64,000 nucleotides of DNA, from the NCBI GenBank assembly GCA_035235625.1, contig CP141143.1:43757178-43821177 (forward strand), given 5' to 3'. Below the pieces are notes generated by a model. It ran no database searches and was not told where the DNA came from. It saw nothing but the letters and a program-made list of their open reading frames with translations. The translations under genes were made by a program, and so were the position numbers. Below are positions 2,240 through 62,742 of the stretch, one piece after another (position 1 is the stretch's first letter; every line of letters begins with the position of its first letter). This DNA comes from Saururus chinensis. Lineage: Eukaryota > Streptophyta > Magnoliopsida > Piperales > Saururaceae.

Positions 2240-3891
2240 CAAAGGTTGCAATCTGCATCAAAATTACTAAGCAATATAAAAACAAATATTTATTTTGTCT
2301 CATGATAAGGCTAGTGGGTTATACATAAAACATTACAGGAAAATCCCACACCTTTGGGCATAGGGATTCACCCATGTTAAAATATATAACTCTCCACCCT
2401 ATCTTAATTATGTGACGCTAACTAACACCTCCCTTTGGGGCCGAATGACAATCTTTGTCACATAATCAAAATTTGATGACAGCACAATATTTTTATATAT
2501 GTGAATCTATGCACCCATGGTAGCATTCTATATGATTCACACGTTGATAAATAACTTAGGATGCTTTGGTCACTCCTAAATCATCTTAACGGAAGTGGGA
2601 ACTGAATTTGTGCTAATCACCTTTTCAAATAATAAAATGAATGCAATTAATAATCAAACAATCATAAGAATATCCATATACAAAATTAACAATGGCATTA
2701 ATGTCAATTTTATCATTAGGCTTTTGGGACTCGGCCAGGAGTTCCATCACCACACACCACAATTAAAAAATATAGTCCAAAGTCCTTATATAGTCCCTTA
2801 AAAAAGAAAAAATAATACAAGTTGGAAGCTATAAGCCCCTGAAATAGAAAAAATTTATATTAAGACTCAATGACTGCATCCTCCTCCAGACGTGGTCCTT
2901 GAATTCTGGTGTTGCTTACAATAGGTATAATGTACACTCTCTCTCTCTTAAAATTACATAAGTGGTGCGCTCAGTAATTTTAAAAATAAAATTGATAAAA
3001 CATACAATTGCAATATAATCCCCTGGCCGGTCCATAATAATAATAAAGCCCTAATCATGATAATTAAATAACACATCCATAACATACATGCAATCACAAC
3101 TTTATATATAAAAAAATGAATTCTAGGAAATGAAATAATAAAAAAAAATTTTGAATTTTTTTTTAACTGATCCGGAGTGGACTAAACCGGGTTTGAAGAC
3201 CCAGTTTGGGCCGGGTCAGTGAAAACCCGCCCGGGTGCGAGTCAGAACAGACTCGCACCCAACGCGGGTCAGCTATGACCCGCGCGATCGGGTCTGAAGA
3301 CGACCCGGGGTCATCTTCAACCTCTCGTATGTGGTGAGAGGTCTCAAACCTGTGGGTGAGAAAAAAAAAGCCCGCCATCGACCGTCGAAGTCCGCCGGTA
3401 GATCGGAAGTCCTGGAATATTTCCGTCCATGGTGGCGAAGACAGATCCACCCACAAAACCGGAGCGTGGCGGCCGGTTGCGGCGTTTCAAAATGCGCACA
3501 GTGTAAGAAAACCAGATCTGGCGGTTGTGCACGACGCCCGCCGGAGGTTCCAGATCCTGCCCCTGTTACAAACAGCAACAGCAGGCGGCGGGCTTTCCAA
3601 CTTAAAAATGGCGGAAAAAACCAAAGGAACAACGGATCTGTGCGCAGCGGCGGCGCCGGTTAGAGCCCAACGCCTGACGGCAGTGGCTCTAGCCATCGCG
3701 ACTATTCCGGCTAATAGTCCGGCGGTTGTTCAGCAGCTGCCTAGGAACAGTAAACAGAAAAATTACAACGAAGGACAGAAAATTTTACTACAGTAAATAT
3801 AAAGTTTAAAATTTCTGTCCGGCTACTCAACTTGCAATTAATAAACCAGCTCGATAGCAATTGATATACTTAATACAGGGATTAGGCATAC
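1993..3891 (-). other. probable intron within copia gag
   Basis: An ATG at 3901-3899 gives a 10-nt exon (ATGGCTACAG) followed by GTATGCC. A pyrimidine-rich stretch ending TTGCAG lies directly before 1991. Joining the two gives MATAYPSF in frame with the downstream gag. Donor, acceptor and phase all agree, but no transcript is available, so the splice is inferred. The intron is about 1.9 kb and holds a GC-rich block at 3170-3730 with no recognisable coding content. Confidence 0.5.
3233..3260. repeat. perfect 11-bp hairpin
   Basis: GGGTGCGAGTC at 3233-3243 and GACTCGCACCC at 3250-3260 are exact reverse complements around a 6-nt loop. The hairpin lies in a GC-rich block (3170-3730) rich in gggtc/gaccc motifs, inside the proposed gag intron of the copia element. 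Confidence 0.85.
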
Positions 3892-7925: not shown

Positions 7926-10211
7926 ATGTACAACCCTTGTAGCGAAAGGGCTACAACATTGGTATTGGCTAGTCAGGCCTTCCTACACCTCGTTGTGGCC
8001 TCCACTCCTTTGCGTTGGCTAGTGCTCTGCTACTTTCCATGCACCCCCCTCTCAGTCCCATTCGGAGGGGGTTTCTTCTCAGCCGCAGGCGCTCCCCATG
8101 TTTGGCCATCCGGTGGCTAGTGTATCTCCCTCCCGGCCAGTGTGCTACTGGCTAGAAGCCACCTTCACACAGCCCTTCATTGGCTCCCTTGACTTAGGCC
8201 TAGCTAGGGGTGCTAACAAGTCGAGCCAGTTCGTCGAGCAAGGGTACCTCGACTCGACTCAACTCGAATATAGTTCGACTCGAAGCGGCTCAGCTTAAAC
8301 TCGACTAGAACTCGAATATATTTGAGTCAAGCTCGAGCATACCTTGGCTCGACTCAACTCGACTCGAATAAAACTCAAACTCGGCTCAAACTAGACTCGT
8401 ACTTGACTCGAACTCGAACTCGAACTCGAATGAATATGTAAACATGTTTTATAATATACATAAATATATATTAATACCTATATGTACATATGCATAATTT
8501 GAAATTTAGATATGTCATAGAAATTTAACTTAATAAAGTATATACATATATAGTACAATTGGTAAAAAATAAGATATATTATAGTCTATACTAGGTATTA
8601 AACTATATGTCAATCATTAGACAAAAATGTACCGGTAATTAATATTATATATTATTTCTACATGTCAAATAAATTAAGATATATTTTTTTAAAATTTGGT
8701 GTAAAGACTAATGTTGGAATCGTTAGAAATTTAAATTTTACAACAATTTACTAAAAGTTCTTTATATCATAAGATAAAGGCAAGTTATATTCATTTAAGA
8801 CTAGTTAAAGAGGACAAGACTCCAAGTTTCTTGTTGCTAGTACAATATGATTTTCTTGATAATCATTATTCGACTACTGAGCTGTAAGCATATTGAAGAC
8901 ATCTCGCCACATACCAGACCAAAATTAAGGGTAGTTATAACCTGAAAATAAAATCCAAAGAAGGGACAACATTGATTATACAATTAGATGTTATTTTTTC
9001 ATGCATGCTTAATTAATAATAATATTTTAATATCATATATACTGAAGAATTGGGAGCAATTAAAGCTCGAGTAGAGCCTACTTTGAAGCTTTGAGATAAT
9101 TTTCCATGAGCACATATTAACTTTTATTTGTAACTTTTTATATAATTTTAAAGAAAAATATTGTTATTAATTAAAATATGTACTTGGTGCACGTTAGATC
9201 ATAAGAAAGACAAGCAAATAGAGCCCTCATGTTGCATTATTAAAAGCCACAATACTCTCAAAATTGTGTAATAATGATACATATTGCATGTGCCCATTGT
9301 ACATTTTTTACACATAATAAGGGGACTCAATTTAAAATAAATATAGTGATAAAATTAATAAGCTCCATTTCATACACTCATCACTCTTCAACATGCACCA
9401 AACATAATCAAAATTTTGTAGCCTAAGAATACTTAGTTATCATTATAAATAAAACTTTAGTATAAAATAAATAAAATTATAAAAATATCATTCATTAACC
9501 GTTAACCCAAGCAGCCATACCCCATATTTAAGCCTTCAACGAAATTTGTAACTCCCCATACTTGGACCAACCCCGCTCCACCGCTCCACATTCATTTCTT
9601 AGAAAAAAAACCAAGTCCATTTCAGTTCAGTTCGATTTTATAAAAAAAAACCTGAGAACTAGAACCGAACTAATACCCTAGTATAAAAACGAAGTTCCAT
9701 CCACACTGTTCCCTTGTTTCCCAACCCTAATTTTCCTCCCATTTGGCGGCGCCGTGGCCATTCTCCCCTCTCCGGCCACTCTACCTCCTGTCCGGCCAAT
9801 CTACCTATTGTCTCTCTCACGTCGTCTCCCTCCTTCTCTCCCATAGCCCCCCCTCCGTTTCTCCCACTTTGTCTCCCTTCATCTCTCCCACAGTTCCACA
9901 TTTGGTCTCTCCCATAGTCCCACATTAGAAGCCACTTTGGAGAAGAAGTTCTAAAGGAGAGTGCTCGCCACTGTCAAGAAGAAACTCAAAAAGAGTAGAA
10001 CTGAAGAAACTACTGTGGAGGTACAAACCTCTGCTAATGCGAGTACGTTTTACATTTTTCATTTTAGCAACTGAGACACATATTCACCTCTTCTTGTTTG
10101 ACCTAAAATATTTGAGGGAAAGAGTGGTGGGAAACCATTCACCTAAGATTAGAAAAATACATGTGCTTTTGGTCATTGCTTCTATTTCTAATAGTCATCT
10201 TTGTTTCATAG

Positions 10212-11150
10212 GGTGCACTAGTTGGTTGCCACAAAAGACTTGTCGTTTGTATAATACATCTGGTATGTCTCTGTTCATTGATTTTTCTCTAACTGTTAAT
10301 AGTTGTATATATGTACTCACTCATTTTGCACTACTTCTACACCAATTGTCTTGATGAAGTAATAGTTGATATGGTTTCTAATATCTTTTGTCCTGCTAAA
10401 TATTTTATTTCTTTTTTGAGTTTGTGTATGACAAGGAATGATGCAAAAAAATTTACCCTTCCAATGATGTTGCCTTCTGTGCTATAAACAACATTTAAAT
10501 TGGTCGGGTGTTTTATTGTGACATTCTTTTTATAAAATTTCTTTTAAAGTAGCCCTCCATTAAGAAAAATATAATCTAATCGACCAAAAGTAGAAGAGAC
10601 TAAATTAAATCTATAAGTTGAAGAAGCCATGAGATCTCTCACTAAACAAAAAGTAGTTTATCTATTATGTTAATTTTACACACATAGAGGTATATGTGAT
10701 GCAGTAAATAAGTCCATTAAGGTCTAAACATAGAACATAGTTTTGTGATATGATTTCCATGAGTTTTTGGTAGTATTATTGATTCATCAAAAGAATTGCT
10801 TTACTCAAAAGTTTTCCACAACTTGTATCATCTATATGCCATCTCACTTGTTTTCATGGTTCAGGATGTAAGCTTAATCAGAAAGGGCACATAGAAATAC
10901 ATAGCAAGAAAAGGAAGGGTCATGCGAAAAAGATAGCTGGGTTTTAGGCATCTTGTATATTTATATTGCCCCTTACTAAGTAATATTACTTTTCATAGTT
11001 ATTCATTCCAAATGTTATACTATGTTTAGCACATTAAATATGTTAACACTTTACATATCTAAACCTCTCCAACAGTTTGCACCAGGGAACCCATCGAAAG
11101 TGTTGATTACATCAGCTGATTCACAAATACGAGTTCTTGATCATTTTACT
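10212..11150 (+). pseudogene. captured exons of a WD40-repeat (WDR44-like) gene
   Basis: Three exon-like blocks with remaining intron borders match plant WD-repeat proteins of the WDR44-like group. Block A (10212-10262, after an AG and before GTATGT) reads GALVGCHK and, one frame over, TCRLYNTSG. A single-base frameshift separates them. Block B (10865-10947) reads KGHIEIHSKKRKGHAKKI, then a stop where the family has Gln, and its donor GT is now GC. Block C (11076-about 11150, after CTCTCCAACAG) reads FAPGNPSKVLITSADSQIRV. Because intron borders are kept, the fragment was copied from genomic DNA, not from mRNA. In the source family this part lies in the WD40 propeller. The identification rests on recalled family motifs and was not searched. 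Confidence 0.75.
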
Positions 11151-11268
11151 CTGTCTTCTTACTTCTAATGGTAAATGTTGGATTCCTTCTCAGTATTGTG
11201 TATGAGACTTTTATGTGCCATGAAAACAAAGAAGTGCAGCAAAACTCATAGTATTATTGAACTCTGTA

Positions 11269-11472
11269 ATTGTAGCTTCCACTTCCTCATTAGAAGAAAA
11301 AGTGACAGTCCCATATCCACTTGATTTTGAGGTTCTAGGCACTCGAGATACCTTGGTACCAATAACTTTTCCCTTCTCAGAGAAGAACTAGGTGAGAGTA
11401 TCAGAGGTCACTATCCTTGCAAGGTTTCCCACATAGACTTTGTGTGGGCTATCAAAAAATTCAGAATCCTCA
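11269..11472 (-). pseudogene. captured RRM-domain fragment (chloroplast RNA-binding protein-like)
   Basis: Reading the minus strand, HKVYVGNLARIV is an RNP2-type motif. It is followed by FFSEKGKVIGTKVSRVPRTS and SGYGTVTFSSNEEVEATI, the RNP1 region. The spacing is that of one RRM and the wording is that of nuclear-encoded plastid ribonucleoproteins (cp28/cp31/cp33 type). At least two in-frame stops, one just before FFSEK, rule out function. It lies in the same transposon as the WD40 exons but on the opposite strand, so the two fragments come from different genes. The exact source gene is uncertain. Confidence 0.75.
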
Positions 11473-12074
11473 CACTAAAGGAGGGACAATTCCAAAGTTT
11501 GCAAAGGTTTCTATGGGAAGGCCTCTCCCTCTGAATGTGTCGGTGTATTTGATTTAATATCTTATGGATGTGATTTATTTGACACTTTTAACAAAAATTC
11601 AAATATTTATGATCAACTCAGTCTATGAGCAATATTTGTTTATAGAATGTTGGATTAAAATTTTGGATTCAAAAATTAGGTTTATTTTTATATACTGATC
11701 GAGCTCAATTTGAGCTGGGCTCGCCATTGTAATGGAACGAGTTCAAGCTTGAGTTCGAGCTCGAGCTCGAGCTCGTGGTTTTGGTTTGAGTTGAGTTTGA
11801 GCTAGTAAGTTTGAGCTCGTTCGAGCTTCGAGTCGAGTTTGAGCCAAGTATTCTAACTTCGAGTTTGAGCTGCTTGAGGTAAAAACTCGACTCGGCTCGG
11901 CTTGGTAGCAACCCTAGGCCTAGCCATCACATCCTCCAACTTCCCAGTTCAGCAGCCTTGGATTGCCCCTATTTATGAGCAGTTGCAACAACCAATCCTC
12001 ATTCCTCAAATCTAGCCCCCAAGGATTTCTCGAAAGCACTCTCCGCCTCATCGGTTTTCCCATGATGAGGATGT

Positions 12075-13942: not shown

Positions 13943-15091
13943 TTAGGAGCAGTTGCGTAGGGGAAAGCCGCAGAGACAGTCGTTGGCGGCGAAGGAGGAG
14001 GCCTCTAGATGATCGAAGGGGGACCCAGGGGGAATGCGGCCGCAGAGATGGTTGTGGCTGAGGTCGAGGTGGCCGATGTAGGCAGCGGAGGTGATGGACT
14101 TGGGGATGGGGCCGCTCAGCCGGTTGTAGGCCAGGTCCAGGATCATGAAGTAAGATCTCTGTCCGAACGCATCTGGGATCGGTCCCTCCAACGCATTCTT
14201 GCTGAGGTTGAGGATGCTAAGGCCGAAGCTCGCCACCAGTGTCGCAGGGATTCTGCCGCTAAGCAGGTTACCGTCGAGATAGAGTGATGAGAGTACCGGC
14301 ATTCTCCCGAGAGATGCCGGGATTGTTCCGGAGATATGGTTCATCGATAGATCAAGATCGGCTAGGCGGTACATGCCTGAGATGGAGGCTGGAATGGTGC
14401 CAGAGATGCTGTTGCGTCCAAGGAGGGCGCGGCTAAGCATTTTCAGCCGGTTGAAGCCGTTGGGAATCGGACCAGAGATGAGGTTGCGGCTGAGGTCGAG
14501 GTGCATGAGGCCCGGAAGAGCTGTGAGCGAGGATGGGATCCGGCCGGAGATACGGTTGTCGGCAACGTTGAGTACGGTGAGGTGCTGTAGACGACCGACG
14601 TCTCTGGGGATGGGACCGGATAAGCGGTTGCCTACCAGATCGAGGATGCGGAGGAAGGGGAGAGAGGAGGGGATACAGGCCGGGATGGGGCCAGTGATGT
14701 TCTTCCAGTCGGCGATGATGACAGTGCTGAGGCGTCCGAGGCGGCAGATGGCAGGCGAGATTGTACCGGACATAAAGCCGGTACGGTGGGCTCGCTCAAA
14801 AATGGGATCCTCGGACTCGCCACGGAGGGTGATGTCCGCCACCCGCCCATTAAAGGGGTCGCAGCTCACCCCGTACCAGCCGTGGCAACAGTCCGGCCCC
14901 GTCCACGAGTTGAAGATCCCCAGATACGGCTCGTACAGAGCCGACCTCAGGGCCAGCAGCGCGGCCCTGTCCGAGGGCGGACATGCCTGGCAAGGCCCGA
15001 CGGCGGCCGTGAGCAGCAGCAGCAGCAGCACCGCCATCGCGGCCGCATCAACCAGCACAAGTGGTGGTGGGTGAACATGTGTGGGGCCCAT
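13943..15091 (-). CDS. DRT100-like leucine-rich-repeat protein, secreted
   Basis: This is an intact single-exon gene, and the only convincing intact protein-coding gene in the window. The protein has a signal peptide (MAVLLLLLLTAAVGPCQA) and an LRR N-terminal cap (CPPSDRAALLALRSALYEPY, paired cysteines in GPDCCHGWYGVSCD). It then has NGRVADITLRGESEDPIF, about nine plant-type LRRs of the form LxxLxLxxNxxSGxIPxxL, and a C-terminal Cys cap ending CLCGFPLRNCS. This layout is that of DRT100-like proteins of the apoplast or cell wall, which have no kinase or membrane anchor and whose biochemical role is poorly known. The frame stays open upstream to 15175, but a TATA box at 15177 puts that ATG before the transcript start. 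The first usable ATG is 15091 (382 aa). The next, at 15037 (364 aa), matches the usual family length of about 365-372 aa and puts the signal peptide at the N-terminus, so it may be the real start. GC content is far higher than in its surroundings. Confidence 0.9.
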   Translation of the reverse strand: MGPTHVHPPPLVLVDAAAMAVLLLLLLTAAVGPCQACPPSDRAALLALRSALYEPYLGIFNSWTGPDCCHGWYGVSCDPFNGRVADITLRGESEDPIFERAHRTGFMSGTISPAICRLGRLSTVIIADWKNITGPIPACIPSSLPFLRILDLVGNRLSGPIPRDVGRLQHLTVLNVADNRISGRIPSSLTALPGLMHLDLSRNLISGPIPNGFNRLKMLSRALLGRNSISGTIPASISGMYRLADLDLSMNHISGTIPASLGRMPVLSSLYLDGNLLSGRIPATLVASFGLSILNLSKNALEGPIPDAFGQRSYFMILDLAYNRLSGPIPKSITSAAYIGHLDLSHNHLCGRIPPGSPFDHLEASSFAANDCLCGFPLRNCS

Positions 15092-15176
15092 TATTATGTA
15101 ACAGAGGAGGCGCTGCGACGAGGGAGCGAGTGAGCTAATAAGAAAGTGAAGTGAGGAAGTGATGGGAGGAGACACT

Positions 15177-15184
15177 GTTTTATA
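15177..15184 (-). promoter_or_regulatory. TATA box of the LRR gene
   Basis: The minus strand reads CGCTATAAAACAG here, about 85 bp upstream of the ATG at 15091, which gives a leader of roughly 55-60 nt. This is the basis for rejecting the upstream in-frame ATG at 15175. A short CCAGTC repeat lies just upstream (about 15218-15240). Confidence 0.65.
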
Positions 15185-15240
15185 GCGACTTGGGACTGGA
15201 GTTGGCCAAAATAACGATTCCAGTCCCAGTCCCAGTCCCA

Positions 15241-16398
15241 GAGAGGCGGGCCGACTGGGGATGGAATTATTGCTGGGAGGTAAGGCTCTTTAATGGTCAG
15301 TGCCTTTCTGTGTGGGATAAAAATAATTCTGGCGGTACTTTGAACTTGTGCCCAGAAATTATTGCGCAGCGGGGGAAATCACCACTTGTGCGGTTTTTGT
15401 CGTAGCCAAACCTACTACTGCATGTGCTTATCTTTTATTTTTCATTTGATCCAAAGTTGGTTTTATGTTTAGCTTTATTTATACACGTGTAGTCCAAGTT
15501 ATGGTGGAGTTTTGCGTGATTGAGATGTTCAGTGGCAAATTGGGTAACCAGAAAGAAGAGCCGAGCTTGGCCGATTTATTGCACTCACTGCATATGCTTG
15601 TTTTGAGCGGGCGGGCACGTGAGTGTATCAAAGATCTTAGTGCATGAAATTTCAAAATGGGGAATAGTTGACGCTTTGGCCTTATTAGGAATGCTTTAAT
15701 CTCCCTTCAACATATAATCAAGGTCTTTTAATTTTTTAGAGAAATAATACAAATTAAGATGTAATATATCACTTTTTCTTATCAAGTCAATTATTTTTAA
15801 GGAGTCCATGAAAAAATAAACATGAACAAGTCATTTTATGATTGGTGATAGGCACCACGTAAGCATGCCACATTAGTACCTTATATGTACTTAATATTTT
15901 TTTCGATCTCAATAAAATGTTAAATTTACTTATATATACCTTTTTTCACCTATTAGTATTTTATAACAAAAGATTACTTATTCTAAGTTGCTAGCGTCGG
16001 CTGCATGCCAAGGCACAACCTACAAGCTGCTACCAATGGCCAACCAACAGCTCCATAGGATACGGCTCGCAACCTCGCCCCATCGTGGATTTTTCTTCCT
16101 CTTCTTCAATGCCTCTAGTTTACATTAGATCCATGGGGATTTGCATGTCTTCACACACTACCAACTACATCCCGACCCTGCCTCATAGCCTTACTATGGT
16201 TCAATTCCTGGCAGGGTGCTTTCCAGATCGACACTAGAGCAGTAGGAAGAGGAAGAAGCGTTAAGCTAGTAAAGAAAAGAAGGAGGGTTGATGTGGCACA
16301 TGTGATTTTGTATGATATTCTTGAGTATTTATTAATTATTAACTTGTGTTTGAAATAAAGAAAAGGACTGTAAATTTCTGATTTGCTTTAAGTTCTTG
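15241..16398. other. intergenic, upstream of the LRR gene
   Basis: No gene or complete mobile element was recognised. The first ~300 bp should include the LRR gene promoter. The rest is AT-rich with short chance open frames. Confidence 0.5.
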
Positions 16399-31500: not shown

Positions 31501-32719
31501 TACGTATGTATGACCGTATGTGTATGTTATACGTATGTGGGAGACATACGTATGTATGATGACTTTTTGCCTATGGTATGGATATGTGTAAGTGTATGTG
31601 GGCAGAGGTATGGGCGATGGACAGTAAGAGGTGACAGAGGTTTTGTTTGGATTTGGATATAGATGTGGATGCGTAAGCGTATGACAGAGGACAGAGGATA
31701 CGAGTATGACGGGCGAGGATTGGAATAGTCGGTTTGATTTGGATCAAAACGTATGTTGGGGGGTTGTCAGATTGTAAGAGTGTTCATAATTGTACAAGCA
31801 TAACGTACATATTATGAAGTGAAAAGTAAGCATAATCAATGAGGTATTAAGTAAGAGGGCGACAATTGGGTTTGGCTCTGAGGAGCTTAGTATGATGACA
31901 TTTGTGTACGATGTTTTGGCCATAAGGTAGATGGCAGAGATGTAAGATTGTAAGATTTTGGTGTACGGTAAGTTTTGATCCTGATATGGACGAGGTAAGG
32001 AAGTCTGCTGCCCTGAAGAACTAAGGTTTCGATCAGGCTCAACATCGGTTTGATCAGTCGAGGACTGTGAGTTTGTGTGGCATAATTATACCGCATAATG
32101 TACTTAATTCAAACTTGAATTATAAGAATGCTAATGATAGCGTTGTGAGTTTGAGACCTGAGGGTTCGACGGATTAAGTTCTATGTTTGAGCTAGCCGAT
32201 AATGAGTCGGCTAAGCATTTATCATGTCTTGCCATGGTGGTTATCCTGCGAGATGTTGTTTGTGTGCTGTGTTGAGCACCAGACGTCTTTTGCTCTGTTG
32301 AGAGCGACGTATGTTTCCGATTTGGTCTGTGTGCTGTGTAAGCCCAGACGTTTGATGCTCTGTTGAGAGCGTTGTATGATTCCGCCCAAGAGTGGCACTG
32401 CATGTTTCTGCCCAAGTGGCACTGTATGTTCTCTGCCCAAGAGTGGCAATGGCACTATAAGACCCATTATGGTGGGCGATTCTATGGCACTATAAGACCC
32501 CTTATGTGTGGGCAATTGTATGACCCCTTATGTGTGGGTGTATGTTTGCGCGCTCATAGTATCATGGACCTACTCTTACCTGTTTGATCCTGTGCCCCAT
32601 GAGCACTGGTATGCCTTACCTTCGGAAAAGTCCATGGCGTCTAGTCACTCCCCGGAGGTTAAGGTGTTGCCCTAGTGGCATTCTTTTCCATTTCGATGCT
32701 GAAGCTTATTAGTTGTAAT

Positions 32720-41276: not shown

Positions 41277-43767
41277 TATAACACCCAGGGTTTCATTCTC
41301 ATGAACATAGAGGCAATGCGAAACTTAGGGTGTTAACGATATAGCTAAGCATCACATAACATAAAAATAATTCACCAAATGAAATATATTAGTCATAATC
41401 CAGGATCATAGCTCAGCCATGTAAAAGTGCAATAACATAAGAAAATAACATGAACTAATGTTTTGGGCAAGACAGTGCCTTTTTACAAAATAACATGAAA
41501 ATAAACCCATAGTCCTAATAATTCCAGATGTCTATCCTGCTAGCAACTGTGTATTTCCCGCTAATGGAAATTGCTACTCTAAGTCTGGAGTTGTACCTTC
41601 ATCACAGAGATGCTTGAGTATTTCCACTAATACTATGTTAGATGCATGAAAAACCACTCATAGTCATACCAAGGAGGTTGGTATAAAAATAAAAAGGGTA
41701 ATTTAGAAAATGAGCTGCATAAGACAATCGAAATGTCTAATTAGAACATAACTCATAGGGTCTAACCTCTAACCAATTAAGGCCAAGGGCAACCTAATTT
41801 AAAGTGGACTTTGCTCAGGAAGCAATTTACTTATTGCTGCCCAGATATGGACTCTCGCTCAAAGGAGTAACTATATTCTAATAGTAAATCCTAACATCCC
41901 TAGAGATCAACTTGGATTAGTCGAGGGCCTGGAGATGTAGGTACCAACTGTGCTTATGGAAACACTGGTCAGATGTAGATAAGCCTTCCATGATGCTACA
42001 AAATCTAGATGTGTGCGAAGTGCTCAAAGAGCTGGGAACCAACGTCCCATAAGTGTGGAGGCCACACGGGCCTTAAGTTCTGCCTTGGCTATTATTGTGA
42101 GTTTACTTAAACACTAACTCAAACACATGATGCCAATGGATTATAGATTAATCACTGCATATGACAACTTATGGGTGCAGCAAGATGGTGGGTATAACCA
42201 ATTCACTATTCACATACTCATCATGACAATGAATCAAATTGAGGCTTAGATCGAATAACCTATTTCAGCAATACATAACTCAAATTGAGGCTGAGATAGA
42301 GTAACCTAATTCAGCAAGACCTAAATCAGATTGAGGCTTAGATAGAATAACCTAAATCAACAAGACATAGATCAAATTGAGGCTAAGACCTATTCAGGAA
42401 GATAGATCAAATTGAGGCTGAGATAGAATAACATAATTCATAAAGACATAAATCCAATTAAAGCTGAGATAGAATACCCTAATTCAGCATGTGAATGGAC
42501 TGAATTGGGGCTGGGGCAAATTGATACAATCAGCAAGAGAATGGCACTAATAAAGGCTGAAACTTCAATCAAATCTAGCAAGATAATGGCACGAATTAGG
42601 GCTAAATCTTACTATCAAATTCAGCAAGGTATTAGATTGAATTAGGGCTAAAACTCATAATCAATTCAGCAAGGTATAAATAGGGCTAAAACTCCTAATC
42701 AGTTCAGCAAAGTAGTAGATTGAATAAGGCTAAAACTCCTAATCAATTCATCAAGGTAGTAGATTGAATTAGGGCCTAAAACTCCTAATCAATTCAGCAA
42801 GGTAATAGATTGAGTTAGGGCTAACACTTCGAATCAATTCAGCAAGGTAATAGATTGAATTAGGGCTAAAATTTGTAATCAAAATCAGAATCATAAGAGG
42901 TAGACTTAGAGCTAACATATAGAATCAAAATCATCATCATGAGAGATTGAATTAGGGCTTGAATGAATGACCAAATTCAGCATGATAAAAGATTAGATTA
43001 GGGCTGAGATAAATATTAAAAACTAGAATTATAAGAGTTTGAATTAGGCTGAAATATGAAATCAAATATCAAGCATCATAGGGGTCGAACTAGGGATGGA
43101 ATTCATCATCCAATCCAGTATGATTATGGTGTAAAAATTGTATCCTAACTCTACCTGTCCCCCTCCAAAGCTTTGCGCCCTCACGCCTAAGCCTCTACCT
43201 CTAAAATGAGTCAAAAGGTGCTGACTTTCTCCCTCCACAAGCTACTAGCCAAGGGTATGTGTTTTTGGATGGAAGAAAGAGAGGAAAGAAGAGGACTGAG
43301 CAAAAATTGTGCCCCCCCCCCCCCACCCCCCTCCCCCTCCCTCAACCAAGCCTTCATATAACAAAATTCCTATTTTCTAGGGGGTTAAACCAATTATTAA
43401 AATTGGACAAAAGACTGGTGTGTTCCCCCCTAGAGTCCTTACTCCACTTTCCTATTTTCTTGGACCTGCCCCTCCTAAGAGTCTTAGCCATCGCCTATTT
43501 TATAGGGGCCTCCCCCTACAATATAGGACCCGCCCCACATACAAAATCCTCAACCTATTCCTCATTCTTTTGGACTCTCTCCCTCTCAAGTTCTAATCCT
43601 AGAGGGCCGAAAACCCTATCTGACAAAGTGGTCCCCCTTTTTTCCGAGCATGGACTCCTTACCCTATAAGGTTAACAAAACATGCCAATAAAATGAATTC
43701 AAATCAAACAAGCACACACATAAGTAAAAAAAATAATTACCTACAATTAGGGATTAGGGATGTTACA
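41277..43767 (-). repeat. 2.5-kb solo LTR in the satellite
   Basis: It starts TATAACACCCAGGG (decayed TGTAACACCC) and ends GGGATGTTACA. The flanks CAAAA and CTAAC both derive from CAAAC of the satellite, a decayed 5-bp duplication. Satellite phase continues across it (spacing 323 bp after subtracting 2491 bp). It contains a ~46-bp minisatellite (42230-42950) and a C-run near 43312-43330. No coding domain is present. Orientation is inferred from related LTRs. Confidence 0.75.
42230..42950. repeat. ~46-bp minisatellite inside the LTR
   Basis: The first half is built of CAAATTGAGGCTGAGATAGA plus TAACCTAATTCAGCAAGACA units. The second half has drifted to GAATTAGGGCTAAAACTCCT plus AATCAATTCAGCAAGGTA units. 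The related LTR shows the same series at about 45465-46110. Confidence 0.85.
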
Positions 43768-44464: not shown

Positions 44465-46132
44465 TGTAATACCCCGGGTTTTTATTCTCATCAACTTAGA
44501 GGCGATGCAAAACTCAGGGTGTTAACAACATAGAGAAGCATCACATAACATAAAAAAATAATTCAACTTATGAAACATATTAATGATAGTCCATGATCAT
44601 AGCTCAGCCATTTACAAGTACAGTAACATATGGAAATAAAATGAACTAATGTTTTGGGCAACACAGTGCCTTATTAAAAAATAGATTAGAAATAAACCTA
44701 AAGTCCTAAAAATTTCAAATGTCTACCCTGATAGCAATTGTGTATCGCCGGCTAATTGAAATTACTACTCTGAGTCTAGAGATGTACCTCCATCACAGAG
44801 ATGTGTGAATATTTCCACTAATACTCTTTAAGATGCATAAAAAACCCACCCATAGTCATACCAAGGAGATGGGTATAGAAACAAAAGGGGTCACATTGAG
44901 AATGAGCTGCATAAGAGAGTCAATTTTTTTTTAAAACATGACTCATAGGGTATGACCTCTAACTTATAAAGGACAAAGGTAACCAAATTGAAAGTGGAAT
45001 CTGCTCTAGAAGCAATTTACTTACTGTTGCCCGAATACGGACTCCCGTTCAAAGGAGTAACTATATGCTAATAATAAATCCTAACATCCCTAGAGCAACT
45101 TGGATCATTCAAAGGCCTAGAGATGTATGTACCAACTATGCTTATGGACACACTGGCCGGAGGTAGATGAGCCTTCCACGATGCTCAAAAACCTAGATGT
45201 GCGCAAAGTGCTAGGAACCAACGTCCCGAAAGTGCAGAGGCCACATGGGCCTAAAGTGCCGCCATGGCTATTACAGTGAGCTTACTTAAACACTGACTCA
45301 AAGACATGATGTCAACGGATTAAAGATTAATCACAACATATAAAAGCTTATGATTGCAGGAAGACCATGGGTTAAAGCCAAAGATTCAGATCAATGCAAG
45401 CAGGGTTTGATCTCACCATAAACACATAAAACAAATTGACATACTCCCTATGACAATGAATCAATTTGAGGCTGATAGAATAACCTCTTTCAGCAAGACC
45501 TAACTTTAATTGAGGCTGAAATAGAGTAACCTAATTCAACAAGACATAACTCAAATTTAGGCTGAGATAGAGTAACCTAATTCAGCAAGACCTAAATAAT
45601 ATTGAGGCTAAAATAAAATAACCTAATTCAGCAAGACATAATTCAAATTCAGGCAAAGATAGAGTAACCTAATTTAGCAAGGCGTAACTCAAATTGAGGC
45701 TGAGATAGAATAACCTAATTCAGCAAGACCAAAATCAGATTGAGGTTGAGATAGAATAATCTAATTCAGCAAAACATAATTCAAATTGGGGCTGAGAGCA
45801 AATTGATATAATTAGCAAGAGGATGGCACTAATAAATGCAGAAACTTTGAATCAAATCCAGCAAGGTAATGACACGAATTAGGGCAAAATCTTACAATCA
45901 AATTCAGCAAGGTAATGGCACGATTAGGGCTGAATCTTACAATAAAATTCAACAAGGTATTGGCACAAATTAGGGCTAACACTCACAATAAAATTTAGTA
46001 AAGTAATAGATTGAATCAGAGCTAAAACTCATAATTCAATTAAGCAAAGTAATAGATTGAATTAGGGCTAAAACTCATAATTCAATTAAGAAAAGTAATA
46101 CATTGAATTAGGGATAAAATACGTAATCAAAA
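44465..46132 (-). repeat. LTR of the same 2.5-kb family, one end lost
   Basis: It begins TGTAATACCCCGGG, directly in the satellite, and is collinear with 41277-43767 through the minisatellite. It stops at about 46132, where satellite resumes, so the far ~0.8 kb is deleted. Confidence 0.75.
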
Positions 46133-48261: not shown

Positions 48262-51200
48262 TGTAACGCCCGAGATTTTCATACATTTTCCATAAAATTC
48301 ACGGAATTTTTTTTTCAATTTAACAACTATAAATCGGAGGAAAAATGAAGAAATCAAAACCTGTATAAAGAGTTTATAATTTAAAACATCATATGGTTAA
48401 ACATCATACCGCCAAATCAAATATCCTCAGGCGCTACTCGAAAATAAACGTACGACTAAATTACCATGATCATGGATTTTTAAATACAAATAACTCTCAG
48501 GCGTCCCCGAGTACAAGTCCCATAAACAGTCTACTGTCTGATCCAAATTAAAAGTCCAAAAGATATAAACACTTAAATCTCATCTCACCTAATACATCAG
48601 ATCGTGGCACCAAATAGATACTTGCATTGAGTCAAGTATACCTGAGTAAAAAGGGAAACGATACACCTCATAAACGAGTATCCATCTTCCAGAGTTCTCC
48701 AACACAACCTACAAAAGCCTCCTGAACCACGGGGCTAAAAATAGTAGGGTGAGTATTTTCATACTCAGTAGGAAAATACCCAGTAGGGGAAATCCCAAAC
48801 GGTGAACTTAATAAGTTCATAAATACATGCGTCATGCAACTCAACATGAGGCAAACAACGTATAACAATTATGCACATAAACAAATAATCATGCGTAGCA
48901 TATCATGAAACCAAACTCATACAAACACCCTTAATCAGGGTCTTACAAACTTACTCGTATATCATGCTCTTACACTTACACTTTGAATCAGTCTTATCAG
49001 CTTACTCGTACAAATGTACGCTTACAATTACAACGTACACATACTTGTGCAACCTTATTCGTATGAACTCACTTGTACGACCTTACTCGTACAATCTTAC
49101 TCTTACACATAAATGTACTCTTACATCTCCCATAGAAGCTTACACTTACGCTTATGCTTACACTTACACTTACACTTACCATCTGAATCAAAGTCTCACA
49201 AACTTACTCGTACAACTTACTCAGACTCATAAACTTACTCTTACTGTCTTCCAAAGAAGCTCACACTTACTCTAAATCTTACACGTACAACTCACTCAGA
49301 ATCGGAAACATACTAACTCTTACTATTGAACACATACTACCGACAACTGAAGATCATTACAATTAATAAGCTCCAGCATCAGAAAGGAGAGGAATGTCAC
49401 TAGGGCGTCACCTTAACCTTCGGGGAGCAACTAGACGCCATGGACTTTTTCGAAGGCAAGGCACACCTATGCTCATGGGGCACAGGATCAAACAGGTAAG
49501 AGTAGGTCCATGATAATGCTTACCTGAGCGTGCAAATGCCCACTCTTTGGGGCCATACATTGCCAACAAGGGCCATACAGTGCCAACTAAGGGCAGAAAA
49601 CATACAGTGCCACTCTTGGGCAGAACATATATTGCCATCTATAGGCAGAAATATACAGAACCCATGAAGGGCGGAAACTTACAGCGCTCTCAACAGAGCA
49701 TCAAACGTCTGGGCTTAATGCAGCACACAGACCAAAACAAAGCATACATCGTTCTCAATAGAGCATCAGACGTCCGGTGCTCTATATAGCACACAGACAA
49801 AATCCCACAGGATAAACACCATGGCAAGACATGACAAATGCTCAGCCGACTCAGTATCAGCTAGCACAAACACGGAACTTAATCCATCGAACCCTAAGGT
49901 CTCAAACTCACAACGCTGTCATTAGCTTTCTTATAATTCAAGTTTGAATTAAGTAAATTATGCGGTACAATTATGCCACACAAACTCACAGTCCTCGACT
50001 GATCAAACCGAAGCTGAGCCTGATCCGAACCCTAGTTCGTCAAGGCAGCAGACTTCACTTACCCGTCCAAGTCACACATAGCTCACCGTACACAAATCCT
50101 TACATAAACATACCGCCTCTGTCATCCACCTTACAGTCAAAACATCTTACTTACATTGCCAATTTGAGCTCCTCATAGCAAATCCCCGTTATCACCCTCT
50201 TACTTAGTACCTCACTTATTATGCTTACTTTTCACTTCATAATTTGTACATTATGCTTGTACAATTATGCACACTCTTACTATCTAACAAACCCCACATC
50301 AGGCTTCAAGCCTAAGTTCTCTTACTTACAGAAACCAACCCCTGACTTTGCTCCACACCAAACCGATCCAATCCGCTCCATTCTTCGTCTGTCATACTTA
50401 CGTTTGTCATCTTCTATCACACGCTTAACCGTCCACATCCGACTCCATACCAGAAACCTTACCACTTTTTACTGTCCATCACCCATACATCTACCCTCAC
50501 ACAGTCCACACACATAACTAACTCACGATCGCTAGTCATCACTAGCATGTCCATAAAACACATACGTAGCATACTTACAGATTTGCTAGCCATCGCTAGC
50601 GCATACATATTCTACATCCATAGAACGTACATACAACTCATACTTATCAATCATAATTATAGCCCATATGCATGCCATATGTATCTAAACATACCATATA
50701 AATGCTTATATGCACATCATGCAATCCTAGCATGCTACTACTCATTCAAGCATGCTATCATGAAATTATGAGTTCAAAGCTCCCCTACCTCGTAATCATG
50801 ACCTTTGATGGTGAGCACACAACGGTGGCGGCGTCGTTGGAGGAGTCAGTGGACAAAACCATTGCCTAGATGAGAGAGCTGTTGTCTCAAGGGCTTAGGA
50901 AACGCCGAAACTACACACGGCCAAAAAGGCTATCAAAGTCAATGCGATAAAATTCGCGATCCACGGCGGCACACTTGGGTGGCCGGGATAAAGATCGTGC
51001 CAACGAATGGCAGGTGAGACCAGAATTCAAGGGTGTACTAAATGAAGGTCGGCCGACAGCTGAGAAATACTCGGCCGGCTGTAAGACGTTGAAATTGGCC
51101 GTGGACAGCACCCAATGGCATCGATTTCACATTTACAAGGGCCCACATATGGGCGGAGGGCATGGGGCGACACTCGAGGACGAAGGAGAGGTGGTGGAGG

Positions 51201-56097: not shown

Positions 56098-58172
56098 TCA
56101 ACAATTTATTAGAGCATTAGATATAGTAAGGAAAGGACGACCCAAAATAACAGGAATTTTCCCATGACTATTCTGAATAGGCCGAGTATCAAGGACTACA
56201 AAGTCTACTGGAAAGTAAAATGTGTCAACCTTAATTAGAACTTGTTCAACAACCCCTCGAGGAATTTTTACAGATCTATCAGCTAATTGAAGTGCCATTG
56301 ATATGGATTTCAACTCTCCCAATCCCAATTGCGCATACACAAACTATGATAATAAATTCACACTAGCCCCTAAATCTAACAAAGCCAGCTCAATGTGATG
56401 ATCCCCTATCTTGCATGAAATTGTGGGACAACTAGGATCCTTATATTTGATAGGGAATTTGCATTGAATAATTGAGCTGACTTGGTCTTTTAGGAATGCC
56501 TTTTTAGGAAGATTTGTTTTCCTCTTGAGTCTGACTGTCTTTTAAAAATTTAGCATAGAAGGGAACATGTTGGATAGCATCAAGGAATGGGATGTTTATC
56601 TACACTTGCTTAAGCACCTCTAAAATATCTCCAAACTATGCATTTTTCTTAGGATTGACTAGTCTTTGAGGAAATGGGGCTTTAGGCACAAAACTCCTAA
56701 CTGGGGGTCAACTAAAACAGGTGGGGAGTCTTTGGGTTTCTACTTCTCACTTTTTGACTTTGTATTCTCAGTTTTCTCTTCTTCAGGCATTTTTACATGA
56801 TTGTCAACCTGTCGCCCAGATCTAAGAGTGGTGATTGACTGTACATGTCCTTGGTTATGTGATGCACTTGAAGCATTACTAACAACATATTGACCTTTAG
56901 GGTTGGGTATAGGCTGACTAGGAAACTTGTCTTTCTCACTCTCCCCTACGTAAGTTGCTAACTAGCCAATTTGAGTTTCTAGTTTAGCTATGGCTTGAGT
57001 GTTCATTTGACTAGAATTTTTAAGTTCTAATATGGCCTGGTTAGTAGACTGCATGAATGTTTTGAGATACTCTTCAAGTGATGATTGTTGAAGTAGAGGT
57101 GCAATAACTTGAGGAGCTAATTGGGGAATAGAGGTGTAGGAGGGGTTGGGCTGCGTAAATTGACTAGACATCTGCTGCATTAGTGGCCCTACTCCATTCA
57201 TGGGAGGCTGGTTTTGCCTCTAAGAGAAATTTCGATGATTCCGCCAATTTGGATTGTATGTCTCAGAGAAGGACTACCAAATGGTTTCCCATAATTGTTT
57301 AGTGCATTTGCTTGCTTAGCAAAACTCTTAGAATAACCTGACATGGAAGGACACATTTGAGTAGTATGTATTGGACTTGCACATAGAGAGCACACTTCAT
57401 TTTGAATCTGATTGGCAGAATTCATGTTTCTAGCAACGGTCATGGCTTTTACTTTTCTAGTTAGCTAGTCTAACCTAGCTTTCATGTCAGTATCTTCCCT
57501 TACTTCATATAGGCCTCCTTTCCTAGGGTTTTGGGTTGGTTTTTTTCTATGGCTCAAAAAATCCCATTGCTGGGAACTCTCAGACAAACCTTCTAAGAAC
57601 TTATATGCAACATCATCATTCAGACTCAAGAAACACCCACCATTCATGGATTCAATCATATTGCAATGTATTTGAGTTAAACCATTGTAAAAGTACTGCA
57701 CAAACCGCTATGTTTTAAAACCATGGTGGGGACACTTCAAAAACAAATCCTTAAACCTCTCCCAACTCTCATAAAATTTTTCATGTTCGTCTTGACAAAA
57801 GTCAGCTATTTCTCTCCTTAGGGCATTGGTTTTGGACATTGGGAAATTTTTTGAAAGGAACCTTGCTGGAAGAGAATTTAACCATGCCTTACCTTTATCC
57901 TTTAATGAGAAAGGAAACAGGCACAGATAGACCGACCGATCAGAAAAAAATTAAAATTTAAATGTAGTACAAATTTCAAGAAAATCCTTTACATGCATAT
58001 AAGGATCCTCTCTGTCAAGACCATGGAAGGTGGGGAGAAGTTGAATGACTTGAGCTTTCAACTCACCGTGTGTGGAAGTGGTAGCGGGCAACACTATGCA
58101 TGAGGGAGGATTGATAGTGATCAGTGAAAATAACTCCCTAAGGGGTTTGGCTTCTACATTGTTATCTCTCAT
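56098..58172 (-). pseudogene. gypsy gag-protease polyprotein, broken
   Basis: Gag starts MRDNNVEAKPLRELFSLI, then VIQLLPTFHGLDREDPYMHV and DFLEICTTF (58172-57951). It goes on through KGKAWLNSLPARFLS, FYESWERFKDLFLKCPHHGF and FYNGLTQIHCNMIESMNGG, and then CSLCASPIHTTQMCP, a CX2CX4HX4C zinc knuckle (about 57350). A Gln/Ser-rich stretch follows (57200-56960). The protease at 56340-56098 has LGELKSISMALQLADRSVKI, then FVVLD and VILGRPFLTISNALI. The typical D-S/T-G segment just upstream falls in a stretch (DLGASVNLLS-like, about 56345-56390) interrupted by a stop. Several stops and frameshifts make it non-functional. In live elements gag forms the particle and protease matures it. Confidence 0.85.
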
Positions 58173-61738: not shown

Positions 61739-62742
61739 ATGGTGCTCAAAGGAGTAAACTATATACTAATAGTAAATCCTAGCATCCCTAGAGATCCACT
61801 TGGATCAACCATGGGCCTGGAGATGTAGGTACCAACTGTGCTCATGGACACACTGGCTAGATGTAGATGAGCCTTCCATGATGCTCAAAAACCTAGATGC
61901 ACATGAAGTGCTCAAAGAACTGGGAACCAAAGTCCCGAAGTGCCAAGGTCACAATGAATTGAATTGGAGCTAAAATAACTTAATCAAAATTAGCAAGTCA
62001 TTGTCATAAATTAGGGTTGGAACTCATAATCAAAATCAGAAGAGAATGGCATGAATTAGGGCTGAAATTTATAATCAAAATCAGCAATAGAATAACACAA
62101 ATTAGGGCTAAAAACTCCAATCAAAATCAGCAAGAGAATACCACGAATTTGGGTGGAAACAAATAATCACAATTAGCAATAGAATGTTACGAATTAGGGC
62201 TAAAACTTATAATCAAAATCAGCATAATAAGAGATCAGATTAGGGCTGAAATATATAATCAGAACTAGAATAGTAGAAGATCATATTAGGGCTGAATGAT
62301 ACAATCAAAATCAGGAGGGCTGGACCAAAGGGCTGGTGCATCCCCCCTCTGTAGAGACATTGATATCATCTCCTATTTTCTAGGGTCCGCCCCCTAGAGC
62401 CCTTGCCAACAACCCCCAATTTCTACGGGTTGTCCCCTATATTCTAAGAGCTGCCCCAAATCCAATTCCATCAGACTTATCCTAGTTCGTTTGGACTCTC
62501 TCTGACTCAAATTCCATTCCTAGAGGGTGGGCCCCCCTGATAGACAAAATGGTCCCCGCTTTACCAAGGCCGGACCCCCTAATTCCCAAACGCCCCCCTT
62601 TACATGAAGTTTGGACACCTTATACCCTATTTGGTTATCAAAATCATGCTAATTGTATGATTTCAATCAACTAAGCAATGAAACAAGCACATATAAGTAA
62701 AAAAAAAAAATTTACCTACGATTTGGGATTAGGGATATTACA
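61739..62742 (-). repeat. LTR of the 2.5-kb family, one end lost
   Basis: It starts in mid-LTR (GCTCAAAGGAGTAAACTATA, compare 41857) and ends GGGATATTACA at 62742. It is shortened by deletion, including much of the minisatellite. Confidence 0.75.

Follow-up and report, generated by a model that had tools for sequence, protein, structure and literature searches.

MULEs, CACTA elements and Helitrons are the transposable elements that are best known to capture fragments of host genes. In Saururus chinensis, a 64,000-nucleotide stretch of DNA (C4:43757178-43821177, hereafter the window) contains hAT-type ends that enclose pieces of two genes, and this raises the questions of whether those pieces belong to the element, from where they came and in what order they were brought together. 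Using the window sequence and searches of the genome (516 Mb in 11 contigs), we conclude that window 8205-11916 is almost certainly a non-autonomous hAT element (Ac-like, with an 8-bp duplication) of the Pack-TYPE kind, in which a chimera of two host-gene pieces and a piece of another repeat was formed once between the arms of related elements and then spread.

Ends and interior of the element

The element is 3,712 bp long, and the features recognized in and beside it are given in Table 1. Its inverted repeats begin with TAGGGGTGCTAACAAG and TAGGGTTGCTACCAAG, and the left end (TAGGGGTGCTAACAAGTCGAGCC) is identical by eye to the reverse complement of the right end at 20 of 23 positions. A 21-nt end pattern, allowing at most one mismatch, has 695 matches in the genome (364 + 331) and its reversed control has none; thus, these ends belong to a large family. 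No transposase domain was found by a domain scan of the 13 stop-to-stop frames of at least 58 amino acids that overlap the element, and sequences other than transposase make up most of the interior. Pack-MULEs have a 9-bp duplication with MULE ends, and Helitrons have 5'-TC/CTRR-3' ends and no duplication; both identities are ruled out by the 8-bp duplication together with the hAT-type ends.

Table 1. Features of the element and of its flanking duplications, in window positions
Feature	Position	Strand	Identity or basis
Left target-site duplication, GGCCTAGC	8197..8204		8/8 match with the right one
Left terminal inverted repeat	8205..8227	+	End pattern recurrent genome-wide
Left arm	8205..9580	+	77-84% to relatives without WD/RRM cargo in the match
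Other dispersed repeat, fragment	9591..10018	+	70-82% to L064 and L065
RRM donor intron part, left of nested WD piece	10021..10159	-	96% to C10 donor
WD-repeat gene fragment: two exons, partial third, and their introns	10159..11140	+	94.4% to C6 donor
WD exon A	10212..10262	+	By-eye comparison with L020 1654-1705
WD exon B	10865..10947	+	Donor comparison
WD exon C, cut off at junction	11076..11140	+	Donor comparison
RRM donor: most of an exon, with part of the intron after it	11134..11518	-	90.5% to C10 donor
Stretch between RRM piece and right arm	11519..11639		Whole or partial in 13 copies aligned there
Right arm	11640..11916	+	81-85% to right ends of L066 and L071
Right terminal inverted repeat	11894..11916	-	Sequence inspection
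Right target-site duplication, GGCCTAGC	11917..11924		Exact copy of the left one

In relatives without the cargo, some of which bear a transposase, the match to the left arm ends near element position 1376-1396. The adjoining segment, 9591-10018, was considered as host-gene cargo and rejected, because it matches dispersed repeats. One such match, at C8:20752059 (plus strand), is followed on the same strand, about 2 kb downstream, by a sequence that resembles hAT transposase (C8:20754332, 35% identity), whereas near a second one, at C2:55.447 Mb, the transposase-like match is on the opposite strand. Because of this conflict, we regard 9591-10018 only tentatively as the 5' part of another hAT family.

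A preliminary description of the window, made from the sequence alone, had proposed a 3.7-kb hAT-type element without transposase, defined by terminal repeats and an exact 8-bp duplication, and the above results bear it out in each of these respects. It had further placed WD40-repeat exons on the plus strand and an RRM fragment on the minus strand, within a cargo at 9700-11550. The two gene pieces and their strands are confirmed by the donors described below; the part of that interval that falls within 9591-10018 is dispersed repeat.

The two donor genes and the order of capture

Both parent genes were found in the same genome, where the preliminary description had suggested looking for them, and each continues past the captured part. 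The WD piece aligns with a gene on C6 over 994 alignment columns, introns included, and this donor runs on into further exons on both sides. The spliced donor peptide matches Pfam WD40 at 2.7e-20, and the 23-residue WD fragment of the window alone gives no Pfam match. Exon A of the window copy has one base fewer than the donor, so that its frame is broken. Another locus, at C2:16.087 Mb, was rejected as the donor: its protein identity is 45-75% in three pieces and no DNA alignment to the element exists. All 15 candidates detected with the WD probe were scored, and they comprise the C6 donor and 14 element copies. Divergence of the WD piece from the donor is 3.0-5.5%.

The RRM piece (both minus-strand parts in Table 1) matches a gene on C10, and its RRM_1 domain lies at window 11214-11387 on the minus strand. 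The solved structure closest to the captured donor exon is the chloroplast 30S ribosomal protein cS22 (E = 9.5e-43); the exon also matches '30S ribosomal protein 2, chloroplastic', which we take to be PSRP-2. Of the 26 matches to the RRM piece used as a probe, 16 copies and the C10 donor have at least 73% identity, and the nine others reach at most 41%. Divergence of the RRM piece from the donor is 3.0-8.1%. Since introns of both donors are aligned within the element, the capture was from DNA.

The WD piece is nested inside the RRM piece. A search with the C10 donor, in which 39 of 39 candidates were scored, shows the ten copies with both sides preserved to be divided at 276-277/280, a point that the donor alone crosses without interruption. 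In the corresponding search with the C6 donor, the WD copies that are not truncated end at 102 or 104 and at 1085 or 1090. Neither probe revealed a locus outside the element in which the RRM and WD pieces are already joined. Because the copies that keep the junctions have a single set of them, the chimera was formed once, before amplification. When ten copies and both donors were aligned by eye, the right WD/RRM junction was seen to lie in TT[T/C]TTGA, which is common to both donors, and at the left junction the donors have at most one base in common. The foreign DNA may have entered by templated gap repair within the element, with template switching at short homologies.

Past the WD piece, the RRM donor sequence resumes only 3 bp further on, and for this reason we lean towards capture in two steps. 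An RRM-bearing Pack-hAT would have been broken in its cargo and repaired by copying 1 kb of the WD gene, on another chromosome, and the nested product would have founded the amplified family and the short derivative. If this is true, one genome holds an ordered series consisting of a transposase element, a first capture, a second capture in the cargo, amplification and miniaturization. It is also possible, although we give it less credence, that a single concerted repair with several template switches brought all of the foreign pieces together, instead of the RRM piece first and the WD piece inside it afterwards. The resumption after 3 bp is easier to understand as a break in a resident RRM piece that received a WD filler, but the single repair agrees with the lack of an uninterrupted RRM piece in any copy among the 39 candidates, and also with the divergence from the two donors. 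In copies L001-L010, to which the latter comparison is confined, the sites at which no copy has the donor base number 6 of 273 in the noncoding sequence of the RRM piece and 10 of 789 in that of the WD piece (Fisher p = 0.26), and by majority the counts are 9 of 273 and 18 of 789 (p = 0.37). The divergence of the two gene pieces from their donors is not distinguishable, and gives no order in time to the two captures.

Coding state, insertion sites and relatives

Summed over 16 copies, the RRM exon (89 codons; 65 synonymous and 202 non-synonymous sites) differs from the donor by 24 synonymous and 148 non-synonymous changes, a total in which shared changes are counted repeatedly and which is not a proper rate test. 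In-frame stop changes, scored by placing each single-base difference separately in the donor codon, are present in 13 of the 16 copies, and the RRM splice donor is AT in 11 copies and GT in three. Gap counts in the exon were not used, because an extra base in L009 and L010 makes an alignment column. Purifying selection has left no sign in the RRM reading frame. The cargo resembles passenger DNA that is decaying without selection on the protein, and it is probably as such a passenger that it has been carried. Frames of 137 and 148 codons between stops persist in the RRM pieces of L008 and L007, as might be expected if the cargo were a functional chimeric gene under selection and the Pack-element a source of new protein. 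However, we consider this very improbable and reject a coding role, given the stop changes, the non-synonymous changes that are not depleted, the AT splice donor of 11 copies and, in the window copy, the frameshift in WD exon A. Putative regulatory effects, via antisense or small RNA, are possible.

As in Pack-TYPE elements, the host-gene fragments have donors elsewhere in the genome (the C6 WD-repeat gene and the C10 cS22/PSRP-2-like gene), and the cargo travels with the element: the same chimera recurs between the same ends at many places with differing flanks, and the gene pieces have thus reached many chromosomes. Among the best 40 of 1,191 candidates in a DNA search with the whole element, there are at least seven other near-full copies, with 85-91% identity, and many partial or shorter ones. 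Twenty-eight loci were examined, and 16 of them have two credible ends in the fetched DNA. Nine have no end pair there, L020 (the WD donor) among them, and three were set aside from the duplication count: L024 and L025, for which the genuine right ends were located in L071 and L066, and L028, which has poorly matched ends (4 and 3 mismatches) and a duplication of 3/8 but may be real. The duplications of the 16 usable copies match at 8/8 in nine, 7/8 in four, 6/8 in one and 2/8 in two, namely L018 and L004, the latter adjoining a second left end. A match of at least 6/8 is thus found in 14 of 16 copies (14 of 17 with the doubtful L028 included). In cross-paired flanks such a match is found in 7 of 342 cases; this control includes L024, L025 and L028, and for the real copies, unlike the control, the best match was taken from as many as six pairs of ends, a slight bias in their favor.

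When the 500-bp flanks of 19 paired loci were compared, the sole similarity between true copies was that of the right flanks of L001 and L010 (73% over 241 bp). The remaining matches lie within L021, or are those of L024 with L025, whose right ends there are not real. The flanks being dissimilar between copies, the insertions are independent. Other copies with the same terminal repeats, which the preliminary description had proposed to seek, were found both with cargo and as cargo-free relatives; in the genome as a whole, 16 copies have the RRM piece and 14 the WD piece. Its reading of the fragments as part of the element, instead of older residents of the site, holds good, and the presence of the chimera in many copies refutes the idea that the cargo arose where the element is inserted. 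The window copy has decayed, and a search with its joined flanks revealed no empty site for it in this genome, but a chance assembly, in which unrelated relics came to stand between hAT-like ends or the element invaded an old pseudogene cluster, is scarcely conceivable when the identical chimera with its junctions lies between the same ends at many sites, with their own 8-bp duplications.

Elements with different interiors share the left arm, as far as about element position 1376, and the final 277 bp. Locus L062 has Pfam zf-BED, hAT-like RNase-H and Dimer_Tnp_hAT domains. It belongs to a relative on C10 (L024/L062/L071) that has the same left arm, a right arm of 85% identity and an exact duplication, GTTGTGAG. 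This relative, the only one traced to a transposase and to a right end with a matching duplication (n = 1), measures 12.3 kb between its ends, 4.4 kb of which (C10:29061001-29065399) lies outside the sequence read; its transposase frame is interrupted by a related element that belongs to the same end family. Other sequences that match the transposase, with 78-92% identity, are located at C3:29.22, C6:16.64, C1:4.70, C11:18.08 and C2:39.96 Mb, and at four of these five (C3, C1, C11 and C2) the same left arm or left end stands upstream on the same strand. L025 is a 4.0-kb cargo-free relative with both ends and, as seen by eye, the duplication CTACTGAC, and inspection by eye revealed no transposase-like frame in it. 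Because its arms are common to transposase-containing relatives, the cargo form is best read, judging from the sequences, as a derivative that has other sequence in place of the transposase region. Its mobility probably came from the transposase-containing elements that share these arms, and the copies may have been moved by transposase that such related elements supplied in trans.

A short derivative of 1.43-1.46 kb is present in at least nine copies among the best 40 of 139 candidates, and the five of these that have both ends are 1,428-1,464 bp long. Element positions 1-1059 are joined in it to about 3252-3712, and it retains 35-41 bp of RRM donor sequence with 93-100% identity. This remnant shows that it descends from the cargo form, in which a later internal deletion left only a trace of the cargo. 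L026 (1,351 bp) is a different deletion form. L011 (C6:15.498 Mb) and L012 (C2:29.422 Mb), on different chromosomes, have the same internal deletion. Both are also broken near element position 3204, and additional right-end sequence follows at a distance of about 1.5 kb; the two may represent a sub-family that carries an insertion and was mobilized as one piece.

Comparison with known elements, and the neighboring sequence

The biology of the present element is not new in kind; it is a well-resolved further case of the known Pack-hAT elements. In the portions of the literature drawn on here, gene fragments within hAT elements are described for Pack-hAT of maize and rice (PMC8903248), Ds2 and Ds-l4 of maize (PMC3260210), Hatvine-6 of grapevine (PMC2528002) and Pack-hAT of animals (PMC8277862). 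Gene capture is termed a rare feature of hAT elements in PMC3260210, which agrees with the preliminary description in regarding it as less often documented than for MULEs and Helitrons, although it is in print for several taxa.

The maize and rice elements, as far as the relevant passages of PMC8903248 describe them, resemble the present one in their hAT ends, 8-bp duplications, internal gene fragments and multi-copy clusters, and a stepwise acquisition is proposed for them. They differ in end family and genome, and here both donors, transposase-bearing relatives and the order of the nested pieces have been traced. Ds2 and Ds-l4, which are Ac/Ds elements, likewise contain exon-intron fragments from genes on other chromosomes; the examples given in that part of PMC3260210 are single-donor, whereas the present element has two donors, with the same junctions in at least ten copies. 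The interior of the hAT family Hatvine-6 often matches genic exons and introns, but in the account excerpted from PMC2528002 the elements have a transposase coding sequence in common and the interior is often unique or shared by few of them. In contrast, the present cargo form has no transposase and a single, widely shared chimera. Pack-hAT-N8_XT of a frog, too, is a hAT element that has captured part of a gene and is present in multiple copies, each site having its own duplication; as presented in the pertinent section of PMC8277862, it has one 291-bp piece and is found on three chromosomes, whereas the many copies here contain sequence of two genes that amounts to about 1.5 kb.

The donors, breakpoints, transposase-bearing relatives and deletion derivatives are all readable in one genome, and well-resolved cases are fewer for hAT elements. 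It follows that models of capture can be tested base by base, namely template switching in gap repair against tandem insertion and re-mobilization, to which acquisition is attributed in the portion of PMC8903248 considered.

Several other features were recognized in the window. About 2 kb to the right of the element, a frame of 448 codons between stops (13943-15289, minus strand) has an LRR N-terminal domain and leucine-rich repeats, and is apparently an intact intronless LRR protein gene. A retrotransposon relic with a GAG-pre-integrase domain, presumably of the Ty1/copia type, lies at 401-952 on the minus strand. The 135-bp unit present in two tandem copies at 1965-2239, with 99% matches, is a recent duplication. 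Arrays of 45-46-bp tandem repeats, the units of which look related by eye, are located at 42232-43102, 45461-46122 and 62008-62314. The units of two other tandem repeats, at 32261-32522 and 49550-49802, are by eye mutually reverse complementary (..CCCAAGAGTGGCACTG..), and these repeats are perhaps two inverted copies of one element. The plant C/D-box snoRNA snoR71 was recognized above the Rfam gathering score at 57718-57824 on the plus strand.
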